Assembly (NCBI RefSeq): GCF_003550175.1 | Contig: NZ_QXDF01000001.1 | Location: 582,501-646,500 of the forward strand | Source: Dichotomicrobium thermohalophilum | Lineage (GTDB): Bacteria; Pseudomonadota; Alphaproteobacteria; Rhizobiales; Rhodomicrobiaceae | Direction: 5' to 3' | Length of the DNA stretch: 64,000 nt | Shown: positions 59,155 to 63,196 of the stretch, in pieces | Position numbering within the stretch: position 1 is the stretch's first letter | Layout: each line of letters begins with the position of its first letter | Notes under the pieces: model-generated | Seen by the model: the letters and a program-made list of their open reading frames with translations, nothing else | What the model was told of the DNA's origin: nothing | The model's database searches: none | Position numbers and translations under genes: made by a program

Positions 59155-59853
59155 TTACGCGGCCGGGGCCAGAAGGTCCTGGAAGTCGGACAGAGAGTTA
59201 ATGACAGCTAAGGGCTTGGCAGGCAAGTGCTCGGGGGGCTGGGAGAACCGGTTCAGGTGGCAGACGGCCAGGCCAAAGTGGGCGGCTCCAGCGACGTCCC
59301 AGCCGTTGGCCGATACGAAACCGATCTGCTCGCGTGGCAGGTCGAAGGCGTCGACGGCGAGCTGATAGGTTCGCGGATCGGGTTTGTAGATGCCCACCGT
59401 ATCGACGGAAATGACATGGTCGAGCAGGTCTGGAAAACCAGCGTGTGCCACCGCCTGCTGCAGCATATCTGGCGCCCCATTGGACAGGATCGCCGTGGCG
59501 ATGCCGCGCTCGCGCAGCGCGGAAAGAGCGGACGCGGCGTCGTCATAGGTGTCGAGGTCGCGGTAGAGCGCCAAGAGCTTGTCGCGTAGCTCGGGAGTGG
59601 CGATACCGTGCGCCTCCAGCGCGTAGTCCAGCGCATCGCACGTGACCTGCCAGAAGTTCGCGTAGTCGCGCATCAGGCTGCGCAGCCAGGTGTATTGAAG
59701 CTGCTTTTGGCGCCAAAGTTCCGAGACGAGCGCGGCGTTAGGCCCGATCTCGCCAGCGAGCCGGGCCATTGGCGCGTGCACGTCGAACAGTGTGCCGTAC
59801 GCGTCAAAGGCGACGGCCCTGAGGCCGGAGAGAGATGGGGCGGGGTCGCTCAT
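59155..59853 (-). CDS. Haloacid dehalogenase type II
   Basis: The 232-residue protein has the L-2-haloacid dehalogenase motifs: AFDAYGTLFDVHAPM (nucleophile Asp17), QLQYTWLRSLMRDYANFWQV, AILSNGAPDML, YKPDPRTYQLA and FVSANGWDVAGAAHFG. These are specific to type II dehalogenases rather than general HAD phosphatases. It replaces halogen with hydroxyl on 2-haloacids such as chloroacetate. It ends 63 bases from the start of the TRAP binding protein gene and is read in the same direction, so it may be the first gene of that operon. Confidence 0.9.
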   Translation of the reverse strand: MSDPAPSLSGLRAVAFDAYGTLFDVHAPMARLAGEIGPNAALVSELWRQKQLQYTWLRSLMRDYANFWQVTCDALDYALEAHGIATPELRDKLLALYRDLDTYDDAASALSALRERGIATAILSNGAPDMLQQAVAHAGFPDLLDHVISVDTVGIYKPDPRTYQLAVDAFDLPREQIGFVSANGWDVAGAAHFGLAVCHLNRFSQPPEHLPAKPLAVINSLSDFQDLLAPAA

Positions 59854-59926: not shown

Positions 59927-60958
59927 TTAGAACGGGCGGGCCGGACCAAGGGAGGCGGCAAACAGCACCACCCCCAGCATCATGACCACAAAGCCCCCGC
60001 CCAACGCCGCGACGGTCTGCACGCGCTCGGCCCACAAAGAGCCAGTCCCTCCGGCGCGCGCGGCCAGTTCCCGCGAGCCCACGGCAGCCGCCGCGAGCAC
60101 GGAAACGGTGATCGCCGTGCCGAGCGACATGGCGAAGGTGGACAGAATGCCGGCCCAGAACAGGCCCTGTGTCAGCGCGAAGACCAAGACGACGATCGCC
60201 CCGGTGCAGGGCCGAACGCCGACCGCCAGCATGATCGCCGCTGCGCTGCGCCAGGACCATGTGCCTTGCAGCGTGCTTGGGTCGGGCATGTGGGCGTGGC
60301 CGCAGCATTCGTCGTCATGCGCGTGGTCGTGCCGGTCGGCGTGCGTGCGCCGCCGCAAGATGCGCCGTACCGCGGCGACGAGCATCACCGCGCCGACGAC
60401 TGCAACCAGCGCATAGCTGAGCGTCTCCAACTCACCCACCCGCTCACGGATGCTGAGCCCTGCTGCGTTCAGGAGGATCGCCATCACGCCGACGAGGACG
60501 ATGGCCGACAGCGCCTGCACGAACGACGAGCCGAAGGCCAGGATGATCCCGCGCCGCGCCGTGCGCTCGTTCGCAAGCGCGTAGGACGATATCACGGCCT
60601 TCCCGTGGCCTGGTCCGATCGCGTGAACCACGCCGTAGAAGAAACTGAGCAGGACGAGAGCCAAACCGGCGGAAAATGCGCGCTCCTCCTTCAGTGTACG
60701 CACGCCGCCGGCAAGTTCGCGATAGAGCTGTTGCTGTGTCTGCTGGATCCAGTTCCAGAAACGACCGAAAGGGCCGGGTTCGCTCCCCGGCGCGGGCGCG
60801 GCGCTCGGCGGCGTGCGCGTGCCGAACGGATTCTGCGCGCCGTCGGCCTGCGCGACAACGGTGGTGTCAAGAGACGCTGCCGTTTCGGAGGTGAACGCGC
60901 CAACAAGCAGTGTGATCAGCGCCAGGGCTGTCAGTGCCCATTTCGTCCACCCAGTCAT
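59927..60958 (-). CDS. Nickel/cobalt exporter, NicO/RcnA-like
   Basis: The 343-residue protein has a signal-anchor start, six to seven helices and the NicO motifs HAIGPGHGKAVISSYALA and GVRPCTGAIVVLVFA. Between helices is a His/Cys/Asp-rich loop (ADRHDHAHDDECCGHAHM) suited to metal binding. It probably exports Ni2+ or Co2+. ATG 60958 is used. A GTG 24 bases upstream is an alternative. It follows a Met-rich EF-hand gene and a DUF1007 gene. Confidence 0.9.
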   Translation of the reverse strand: MTGWTKWALTALALITLLVGAFTSETAASLDTTVVAQADGAQNPFGTRTPPSAAPAPGSEPGPFGRFWNWIQQTQQQLYRELAGGVRTLKEERAFSAGLALVLLSFFYGVVHAIGPGHGKAVISSYALANERTARRGIILAFGSSFVQALSAIVLVGVMAILLNAAGLSIRERVGELETLSYALVAVVGAVMLVAAVRRILRRRTHADRHDHAHDDECCGHAHMPDPSTLQGTWSWRSAAAIMLAVGVRPCTGAIVVLVFALTQGLFWAGILSTFAMSLGTAITVSVLAAAAVGSRELAARAGGTGSLWAERVQTVAALGGGFVVMMLGVVLFAASLGPARPF

Positions 60959-61030
60959 GAAAGCACCCCCGTCTGCCTTCACCTGCGGATTGTCAGGCGG
61001 CGGGCGGATGGCCCACCCGCCGCGCGCGCT

Positions 61031-61690
61031 TTACTCGGTCCGCTCCTGTTGGCCCGGCCCATAGCCACGGCCCATGCCCCGACCCATGCCTTGGTGCATA
61101 CCGCGCCGCATCATGCCGCGACCTCTCATGCCGCGACCATCATTGCGGCCCATGAACCGGTTCATGCGCTCGAACGGCGCCTGCAATTCCGACAGGGTCA
61201 CCGTGGCATCGCCGTCATCATCGAAGAACTGAAAACGGTCCACCATCATCGGCCGCGTGTGTGCCGCATGCATTTCGGCGAATTCCTGCAGCGACAGATT
61301 GCCGTCGCCATCCGCGTCAAATTTTTGCACCTGCTGTTTCCAGAAGTTTGCGGCCTCTTCTTCCGAGACGCGGCCATCCTCATCGGCGTCGGCCATCTCC
61401 TTGAAACGCATGCGCGCGCCGGGCCCCATGCCGTGCATCATGCCCCAGCCGCGGCCCATCATGCCGGGCCACATTCCCTGGCCCATCATGCCGCGGCCCA
61501 TCATTCCAGGGGTCATTCCGTGATGCATCATCATGCCACGTCCCATCATGCCGGGCCCCATGCCATAGCCCATTCCCCGGCCATAACTAGACTCCTCACC
61601 GTTCTCGTCCTGAGCGACGGCGAGGCCGCCAAGACCCGCCAGTCCGATGGTCGCAACGGCAAGTGCGGCGATTAAGCTTTTCCCGTACAT
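61031..61690 (-). CDS. Secreted Met/Gly-rich EF-hand protein
   Basis: The 219-residue protein has a signal peptide (cleavage near VAQ-DE at 27). A Met/Gly/Arg-rich segment (about 36-95) is built from PGMMGRGMM-like units. Three EF-hand loops follow at 101-112 (DADEDGRVSEEE), 125-136 (DADGDGNLSLQE) and 157-168 (DDDGDATVTLSE). A second Met/Gly/Arg tail spans 180-210. It contains about 30 Met in all. ATG 61690 has GGAGG six bases upstream. It lies between DUF1007 and the Ni/Co exporter genes, so a metal-binding periplasmic role is likely. Confidence 0.82.
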   Translation of the reverse strand: MYGKSLIAALAVATIGLAGLGGLAVAQDENGEESSYGRGMGYGMGPGMMGRGMMMHHGMTPGMMGRGMMGQGMWPGMMGRGWGMMHGMGPGARMRFKEMADADEDGRVSEEEAANFWKQQVQKFDADGDGNLSLQEFAEMHAAHTRPMMVDRFQFFDDDGDATVTLSELQAPFERMNRFMGRNDGRGMRGRGMMRRGMHQGMGRGMGRGYGPGQQERTE

Positions 61691-61850
61691 TCTTGTCCTC
61701 CATTTTCGAGGTTTTTTCAGGCGCCCCACATCCAACCCCCTCGGGATGCACGCAAGACACTGGTGTCAAAACGATGGGAGGCAGTTGGCCGTTCCTTAAC
61801 TTTTCTCGGTGGCGCCGCCGCACGGCTCCGCTACCACTTGCATTTCGCGG

Positions 61851-62513
61851 CTATGATGCCGGCTTGCAACGCAGCGCGACGTCCTGGGCGAATTGCGCGC
61901 CCCAGTCTTGCGCCGGGTCAAGCGAATCGAAGAACGCTTCGCCAAGAGTCTGCGTTGTGGTCGATGCTGCCGGAGCCTCGCCGATCTCGGTGGTGCAGCC
62001 CGCTGGGACGTTGCCCGCGAGTGTGACCGGTTGCTCGTCCGCGAGGCTGAAGGACACGAAAAAGGTCGGGTCGTACACAGAGAAGCTGAACTGGCCGGCC
62101 TTTTCCGGCGGCACCGGCTCGGCCAGCGGCAGTGTGAAGTGCAGCGTCAGCAGTGTGCCGTCATAGACGAGGTCGTAGTCGACCGGATCGTTCCGCAACA
62201 GCTTCTGCTCGCCCAGTTCGGCAAAGGTGAAGTAGTCGAAATCGCCCAGGCTCTCGATGTTCGTGCGGGCCAGAGGTTCAAGCTCCGCCGCGCTGTATTC
62301 GCCGTCGCCGTTTGCATCCATGCCTTGCAGAGCGAAGGCGGTATAATACTCATCGAAGACCCATTTGTGCCGGAAGCCAGTGATCGCGCCGGCGTCGTTG
62401 AACACCACCTTGGTCTCGACTGTCACCCAGACATGCGGATGGGCCTGCCCCGGCACAGGCGCCAGCAGCACGGCCATGGCCGCGAATGAAGCCAGATATC
62501 GCCAGATCGTCAT
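61851..62513 (-). CDS. DUF1007 family periplasmic protein
   Basis: The 220-residue protein has a signal peptide (cleavage after GQA at 24) directly followed by HPHVWVTVETKVVFND, the DUF1007 hallmark with N-terminal His residues. An EF-hand-like DANGDGEYSAAE lies at about 66-78. YDLVYDGTLLTLHFTLPLAE and VYDPTFFVSF follow. DUF1007 genes usually precede NicO-type exporters, and the exposed His-Pro-His suggests metal delivery. AGGAG is eight bases before ATG 62513. Confidence 0.9.
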   Translation of the reverse strand: MTIWRYLASFAAMAVLLAPVPGQAHPHVWVTVETKVVFNDAGAITGFRHKWVFDEYYTAFALQGMDANGDGEYSAAELEPLARTNIESLGDFDYFTFAELGEQKLLRNDPVDYDLVYDGTLLTLHFTLPLAEPVPPEKAGQFSFSVYDPTFFVSFSLADEQPVTLAGNVPAGCTTEIGEAPAASTTTQTLGEAFFDSLDPAQDWGAQFAQDVALRCKPAS

Positions 62514-62575
62514 CTCTCGCACTCCTCGCTGAATCCGATAACTGGCCTGACATTTTGTCGAGATTGGGTCCGGGC

Positions 62576-63196
62576 TTACGACGCCTTGGCGCCTCTCCGG
62601 CTGCGCCAGTAAACCCACGCGGCGACCAGCAGGGCGAGCAGGAACGGCACCGCCAAGATGACGAGGGCGTGCTCGTTGACGAAAGCCTGCAACCCGCTGA
62701 TCCGCTGACCGAGCACATAGGCACCGCCGCCCCAGACCAGCGCCCACAGCCCGCTGCCCAGCAGATTGGCGATCAGAAAAGCGGGCCAGGACATGTCCGC
62801 TGCGCCGGCCGCGACACCTTTCATTTGGCGCAGGAACGGGAAGAACTGGGCGAAGAACACCAGCTTCATGCCGTTGCCACGCAGGCGTCTCTGCGTTTCC
62901 TCGATCCTGGCGGGAGTGATCCGCAGACGGTGGCCGTATCGCTTGAGCGCGGGCAAGCCGCCATAGCGCCCGATGACATAGGCGATGATGCCGCCCGCCG
63001 CGCCGCCGAGCCAGCCCGCGAGAATGACGTGCCAGACCCAGAAGGACTGCGACGTCGACAGCAACGCCGCGACGACCAGAAGCGTTTCCGCCGGTGTCGG
63101 CCCGCCGATCTTTTCCAGGAGCACGCTGGCGAACACCGTGAACGCGCCATACTGATACAGGAACGGCTCGATCGAGCTCAGATCGGCGGAGATCAA
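62576..63196 (-). CDS. DedA family membrane protein
   Basis: The 206-residue protein has five to six hydrophobic segments and the DedA/SNARE-associated core: EKIGGPTPAETLLVVAALLS, GGIIAYVIGRYGG, VFFAQFFPFLRQMKGVAAGA and NLLGSGLWALVWGGGAYVLG. DedA proteins are undecaprenyl-phosphate or phospholipid flippases. It is read leftward and followed 62 bases later by the DUF1007 gene, so it may be co-transcribed with the metal module, though function is separate. Confidence 0.92.
   Translation of the reverse strand: MISADLSSIEPFLYQYGAFTVFASVLLEKIGGPTPAETLLVVAALLSTSQSFWVWHVILAGWLGGAAGGIIAYVIGRYGGLPALKRYGHRLRITPARIEETQRRLRGNGMKLVFFAQFFPFLRQMKGVAAGAADMSWPAFLIANLLGSGLWALVWGGGAYVLGQRISGLQAFVNEHALVILAVPFLLALLVAAWVYWRSRRGAKAS

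Follow-up and report, generated by a model that had tools for sequence, protein, structure and literature searches.

A methionine-rich EF-hand protein encoded between DUF1007 and NicO in Dichotomicrobium thermohalophilum: an apparent insertion into a putative metal-importer operon

What is a secreted, methionine-rich EF-hand protein doing between a DUF1007 protein and a NicO-family transporter? The question is raised by the 3′ end of a 64,000-nucleotide stretch of the D. thermohalophilum genome (contig NZ_QXDF01000001.1, positions 582,501 to 646,500; hereafter the window). Open reading frames (ORFs) and Pfam matches place there, on the minus strand and in this order, genes for a DedA/VTT protein, DUF1007, the EF-hand protein (P0001; hereafter Met-EF), and NicO, followed by a HAD-type hydrolase gene recognized by eye. 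An original prediction had described the three central genes as a metal relay serving an exporter. The ORFs and domains confirmed the genes and their positions, and the interpretation was partly supported. We tentatively favor, at somewhat under an even chance, a ZevAB-type importer operon that has acquired an orphan Met-rich, calcium-structured periplasmic protein buffering a Cu(I)-like metal. The gene order, the domains, the Met excess, and an insertion unique among the pairs examined are the observations that carry this reading, along with a usual partner of the EF-hand family that has no full-length kinase match in this genome and a DNA box that is absent upstream of the gene.

In a survey of 61 genomes, the window's own included, DUF1007 was found in 38 and NicO in 40. 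Side-by-side profile hits to the two gave 31 pairs, among them that of the window; the pairing, which the original prediction had called known, is real and common. Left out of the 31 was a second pair in genome G022 (C18; NicO first, with a weak NicO hit and a gap of 401). Genomes and loci carry our own G and L numbers. The distance between profile hits was 206 to 401 nt in 30 of the 31 pairs and 1201 nt at the window locus; therefore, the 30 leave no space for a gene the size of Met-EF. In G001, which belongs to the same family as the window genome, DUF1007 directly adjoins NicO; by eye, the surroundings resemble those of the window, a HAD-type gene lying downstream and, further upstream, an ATP-sulfurylase-like gene. 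A HAD-type gene also follows DUF1007 in G002 (by eye) and is part of the syntenic frame. Because 30 of the pairs lack room and G001 shows direct adjacency, the EF-hand gene appears, on present sampling, to have been acquired by the DUF1007–NicO operon in the window lineage.

A profile search of 347 genomes of the order found EF proteins in 217 (E up to 1e-8) and DUF1007 in 280 (E up to 1e-10). When EF and DUF1007 places were compared by eye, there was no second trio among the matches listed; the EF matches of family relatives G002, G003, G005, G006, and G007, which were weak (best E 3.5e-11 to 9.7e-9), fell outside the listed places. The three genes do lie together here, but they are not a conserved module, and the role of Met-EF may be special to the window lineage. 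These results bear on the proposed relay, in which Met-EF would be a third part dedicated to the transporter, binding metal and handing it via DUF1007 to NicO. The place of its gene between the other two, the metal-binding motifs in all three proteins, and their predicted export or membrane location fit such a role. However, 30 of the 31 pairs do without Met-EF, no further trio was seen among the matches listed for the order, and soft-metal tails mismatch the zinc-type neighbors of DUF1007 described below. We consider the relay the least probable of the readings weighed here.

Met-EF has a Sec-type leader (by eye) and contains 32 Met, the first included, in 219 residues, close to the 30 or so originally noted; it has six His and no Cys. 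Twenty of the Met lie in residues 1 to 95, six in residues 96 to 185, and six in residues 186 to 219. Counting Met-EF, 77 distinct EF-hand proteins were retained from 90 loci after 13 had been dropped as repeats or for having fewer than two loops; among the 77, it ranks second in Met content. Measured against the 3.8% median of these proteins, the excess has P = 9e-11, and the enrichment is not attributable to chance. Pfam EF-hand models match Met-EF with E down to 9.7e-11 (EF-hand_5). As originally noted, there are three loops, each with calcium ligands at positions 1, 3, 5, and 12, at least two such loops being taken to define an EF-hand protein; the third has Ala for the usual Gly, and the fourth loop present in many relatives is missing (by eye). 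By its motifs, Met-EF probably holds calcium and copper-like metals.

A sequence search of solved structures with the EF core matched calmodulins and other EF-hand proteins. A structure model of Met-EF had a mean pLDDT of 46.7, with block means of 49 to 80 over residues 101 to 180 and below 50 elsewhere, and is too weak to inform any reading. Two named identities were rejected. Met-EF scored 24.2 bits with the NCBIfam LanM model (cut-off 135), and its loops have Ala, Ala, and Asp at position 2, where those of lanmodulin carry Pro; with the model for the calcium-binding effector XopAW, it scored 30.3 bits (cut-off 120). No Met-rich EF-hand copper protein was found in the literature searched.

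Apart from the window, the EF-hand family is found without the transporter pair. None of the 76 other EF proteins has DUF1007 or NicO in its flank (about 1.5 kb to either side, or less where a contig ended), and both are absent from all 51 of the larger contexts read around other EF genes (4.6 to 10.2 kb; a non-random set, chosen among the top hits or for their Met content). Scattering of this kind was what the original prediction had named as counting against its trio. It is what would be expected if a chance event had brought the EF gene into the zev operon and the gene encoded a solo periplasmic calcium-binding stress protein, its Met tails being drift with no metal function. The uniqueness of the insertion among the 31 pairs, the imperfect repeats that Tandem Repeats Finder (TRF) detects in the tail DNA, and the variation of tails across the family, which may be His-, Gly-, Arg-, or Met-rich, agree with this bystander role. 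It accounts poorly for the extreme Met excess, for a gene lying co-directional with NicO at a spacing of just 48 to 72 nt, and for copper-type genes at the two most Met-rich other contexts. We rate it a serious possibility, though a doubtful one, and second to the importer with an acquired buffer.

The usual partner of the EF-hand gene is a two-component system (TCS). A conserved OmpR-type response regulator and histidine kinase are encoded in 26 of the 51 larger contexts (L106, L138-L143, L145-L149, L154-L156, L160, L163, L164, L167, L222, L225, L229, L231, L232, L235, and L236), and in 24 of these a script placed the EF gene divergent from them, that is, nearby on the opposite strand. The commonest 7-mers upstream of the 24 divergent EF genes were TGTCGCA and TTGTCGC (18 of 24 each); in five block shuffles, the best word reached 6 to 8. 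A TGTCGC-type box was present upstream of the EF gene at 18 of the 26 TCS loci versus 4 of the 25 others; at the rate seen in the window itself (23 in 64,000 bases), chance would give about 3 to 4 of these 25. At several loci the box reads TGTATC-N4-TGTCGCA, a tandem form that would be expected of an OmpR-type regulator. This widespread EF-hand/TCS pairing with a shared DNA box is an unexpected wider finding, and no published name for it was found in the literature searched.

Met-EF belongs with the TCS-paired family by profile hits and alignment, which reveal a homologous EF core. Unlike the TCS-adjacent proteins, the window copy has no TGTCGC-type box upstream, and neither a TCS regulator nor a kinase has a match within the window. 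A search of the window genome for the kinase, the regulator being searched in the window only, gave no full-length match; the best hit covered residues 194-462 (the kinase domain) at 38%. The best kinase hit in G001 was likewise to the kinase domain only. Near full-length kinase hits (41-43%) were found in G002, G003, and G005, with no multi-EF-loop gene in the surrounding 8 kb.

A first EF search of a public genome collection had returned one locus, L106. With the L106 protein as query, 385 genomes of the class were searched for further Met-rich relatives, and the distinct ones of 30 loci joined a tree of 83 EF cores, in which few columns were available, 5 of 88 cores were left out, and the bootstrap had not settled. 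There, Met-EF clusters with L106 and with L018, whose branch is very long (89/84), and next with L007 (88/81), a moderate support below the top class. The L106 and L007 (L160) proteins, like Met-EF, have no fourth loop (by eye), and their loci carry the regulator and kinase. Because of this placement and the TCS at both loci, Met-EF looks like an orphaned member of a TCS-linked EF branch.

Soft-metal binding by the Met-rich parts, part of the original prediction, fits the copper-type genes that lie near the two most Met-rich proteins of the 51 contexts; in the window itself, the seven copper-type queries described next found none. L106 has a heavy-metal P-type ATPase, DsbD, and DUF302 as neighbors, and the G030 EF protein has a multicopper oxidase, a cupredoxin, CusF, and DUF411. 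Seven copper-type queries run against the 51 contexts gave hits only at these two. A Metal_resist protein is encoded near the third most Met-rich, L219 (30.0 bits, cut-off 29.2). Met-rich periplasmic copper-binding proteins carry dense Met motifs, and Met-EF resembles them in this density and in having two relatives beside copper-type genes; it differs from them in its EF-hand scaffold.

Which metal do DUF1007 and NicO handle, and in which direction? Besides the window's, 14 DUF1007 contexts were read (6-11 kb), nine with NicO (9-11 kb) and five without. Among the nine, ZnuA is divergent in two (G008 and G059), and nitrile hydratase genes are nearby in two (G047 and G019; Pfam) and, by eye, in a third (G020). 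These enzyme genes hint at cobalt delivery by some DUF1007–NicO members. The loci of pairs near nitrile hydratase genes are L102 and L103 (Pfam) and L104 (by eye). The NicO-less contexts include G002, with ZnuA, and G005, with ZrgA, an ABC protein, an FtsX-type permease, and DUF3299 (Pfam); those of G003, G004, and G006 resemble G005 (by eye).

A Zur-like motif was derived from three sites, namely the window genome's own znuA promoter (L184:3744) and two DUF1007 promoters. It had a full match upstream of DUF1007 in five of five NicO-less family relatives (palindromes at L092:4805, L093:5916, L094:5063, L095:5458, and L096:4757), two of which had defined the motif and the other three of which share their genus with one of these two. 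These boxes and the ZnuA and ZrgA neighbors therefore indicate probable zinc control of solo DUF1007. In the paired locus of G042, a Zur-like box lies about 800 nt upstream of DUF1007. The 260,068 bases of EF contexts contained no full match. That Zur controls the window operon itself was considered and rejected, as the operon has no box.

Could the pair instead export nickel/cobalt or copper, with Met-EF as a periplasmic sink for the exported metal? RcnA and other exporters belong to the NicO family, and the copper-type genes around Met-rich relatives would suit such a sink. However, the window NicO scored 21.2 bits against the NCBIfam nickel/cobalt efflux model PRK10019, far below its cut-off of 195, which does not place it with RcnA-type proteins; the metal genes recognized beside DUF1007 serve uptake or encode metalloenzymes, and solo DUF1007 genes carry Zur-like boxes. 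On the first two grounds the exporter label of the original prediction was dropped, and we judge an exporter with a sink improbable.

The DUF1007 and NicO domains are encoded in tandem on the same strand with one gene between them, and the His/Cys loop originally noted in NicO is present in its translation. The predicted mature N-terminus of DUF1007 is HPHVWV. HPHV[WF] directly follows an apparent signal peptidase site in 26 of 30 DUF1007 loci (61851-62513 and L031-L060), and therefore mature DUF1007 would begin with His. A His as first mature residue resembles histidine-brace metal sites. The EF-like loop that had been pointed out in DUF1007 exists and is not special to this locus; 25 of the 30 loci, the window included, have one, and it appears to be a usual trait of the family here. 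Neither DUF1007 nor NicO had a sequence match among solved structures at E up to 1.

The positions of these features are given in Table 1. The intergenic gaps, in the order of the run, are 62, 160, 48, and 73 nt; the third becomes 72 nt if NicO starts at the ATG at 60958 and not at the GTG at 60982. Because a pattern scan found no promoter-like sites and terminator-like sites were at chance level only, a single operon spanning the run is plausible. Motif scans of the 160-nt gap upstream of Met-EF found neither a Zur-like nor a TGTCGC-type box. The gap contains a palindrome, GACACCAGTGTC (61756-61767, minus-strand reading), that overlaps a TTGACA-like hexamer. No RNA families at the gathering threshold and no tRNAs were found within the window.

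Table 1. Features of the DUF1007–Met-EF–NicO locus, in window coordinates
Feature	Position	Strand	Evidence
DedA/VTT-domain membrane protein, first in the co-directional run	62576..63196	-	PF09335, 61.7 bits (cut-off 33.9)
DUF1007 (ZevA-like) periplasmic protein	61851..62513	-	PF06226, 212 bits, 1.2e-62
EF-like loop of DUF1007, DANGDGEYSAAE	62283-62318	-	Motif in sequence
Gap between DUF1007 and Met-EF, 160 nt, with palindrome GACACCAGTGTC	61691..61850	-	Sequence
Met-EF, Met-rich EF-hand secreted protein, 219 aa (P0001)	61031..61690	-	ORF, translation, Pfam
N-terminal Met/Gly-rich tail of Met-EF, residues 40-99, imperfect tandem repeats	61394..61573	-	Translation; TRF arrays within 61448-61573
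EF-hand loop 1 of Met-EF, DADEDGRVSEEE	61355..61390	-	Translation, alignment
EF-hand loop 2 of Met-EF, DADGDGNLSLQE	61283..61318	-	Translation, Pfam, alignment
EF-hand loop 3 of Met-EF, DDDGDATVTLSE, Ala replacing Gly6	61187..61222	-	Translation, alignment
C-terminal Met/Arg/Gly-rich tail of Met-EF	61055..61165	-	Translation, TRF
NicO-family (ZevB-like) transporter, His/Cys loop	59927..60982	-	PF03824, 139.8 bits, 1.5e-40
HAD-type hydrolase, downstream of NicO	59155..59853	-	By eye

Among known systems, the locus resembles Haemophilus influenzae ZevAB, in which we assume a DUF1007-type periplasmic and a NicO-type membrane protein to be likewise encoded together, HI1248 presumably being ZevB. 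In excerpts of the published accounts, ZevAB is a zinc system serving uptake (PMC3872050, PMC10563805, and PMC8000910), HI1248 is annotated as a nickel/cobalt transporter (PMC3877243), and an account of nickel/cobalt transporters did not settle the direction of DUF1007–NicO pairs (PMC2667541). Unlike ZevAB, the window locus has an inserted EF-hand gene and no Zur-like box, and a zinc role here is a prediction. Met-EF can also be compared with Caulobacter CaBP (CCNA_02838), which an excerpt describes as a periplasmic protein of 133 aa with three EF-hands, a Sec leader, and sigV as a neighbor (PMC13171946). Met-EF shares the predicted periplasmic location, the three EF-hands, and the leader; it differs in its Met tails, which the excerpt on CaBP does not mention, and in having a transporter, not a sigma factor, as its neighbor. 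CaBP with sigV is the nearest published case that we met for the EF-hand/TCS pairing, as far as that excerpt goes.

We infer the following arrangement for the importer with an acquired buffer. The DUF1007 binding protein and the NicO transporter would import a divalent metal, zinc first, with cobalt or nickel possible. In the window lineage, their operon would have gained an EF-hand gene of different origin, a copy that would stand without its two-component partner and the DNA box that goes with it. Calcium would fold the EF-hand core of Met-EF, and the long, probably unstructured Met-rich tails would bind a soft metal, either Cu(I) or one like it. Met-EF would be produced along with the importer and serve as a periplasmic buffer that keeps the wrong metal off the importer.

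Several points count against this arrangement. The equation of ZevA with DUF1007 and of ZevB with NicO is our assumption, and metal binding by Met-EF is a prediction from sequence, the Met runs of which may be low-complexity drift. By eye, no metal gene was recognized in four of the nine paired contexts. A Zur-like box was found upstream (within 400 nt) at 0 of 25 other DUF1007 loci, 23 of them with NicO and the window included, and no 10/10 box occurs anywhere in the window, the best being 8 of 10 at 62530; zinc control is thus not established for the paired form. The copper link consists of two loci, and the seven queries were drawn from those loci themselves; copper genes outside this set could therefore have escaped the search. 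The relative in G030 is shorter and has two loops (142 aa, E 1.2e-6). No copper-type hit came from L219 onward, the contexts that follow in Met content, and none of the seven queries matches within the window. We nonetheless place the importer with an acquired buffer ahead of a chance, unlinked insertion, and regard the relay and the exporter with a sink as less likely than either.

A broader and speculative proposal, which we think unlikely as a whole, is that the family belongs to an unnamed alphaproteobacterial envelope-sensing unit, in which a periplasmic EF-hand protein modulates or reports to a divergent OmpR-type TCS acting through TGTATC-N4-TGTCGCA. Met-rich forms would have been recruited to copper defense, and the window copy would have parted from its kinase and been integrated into the operon of a zinc-type importer, whose uptake would be gated or protected jointly by calcium occupancy and soft-metal load. 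If the favored reading is true, one periplasmic EF-hand family shifts between partners, from a two-component system to copper defense to a metal importer. It would also tie calcium to soft-metal handling in the envelope in a testable way and would favor import over export at DUF1007–NicO loci.

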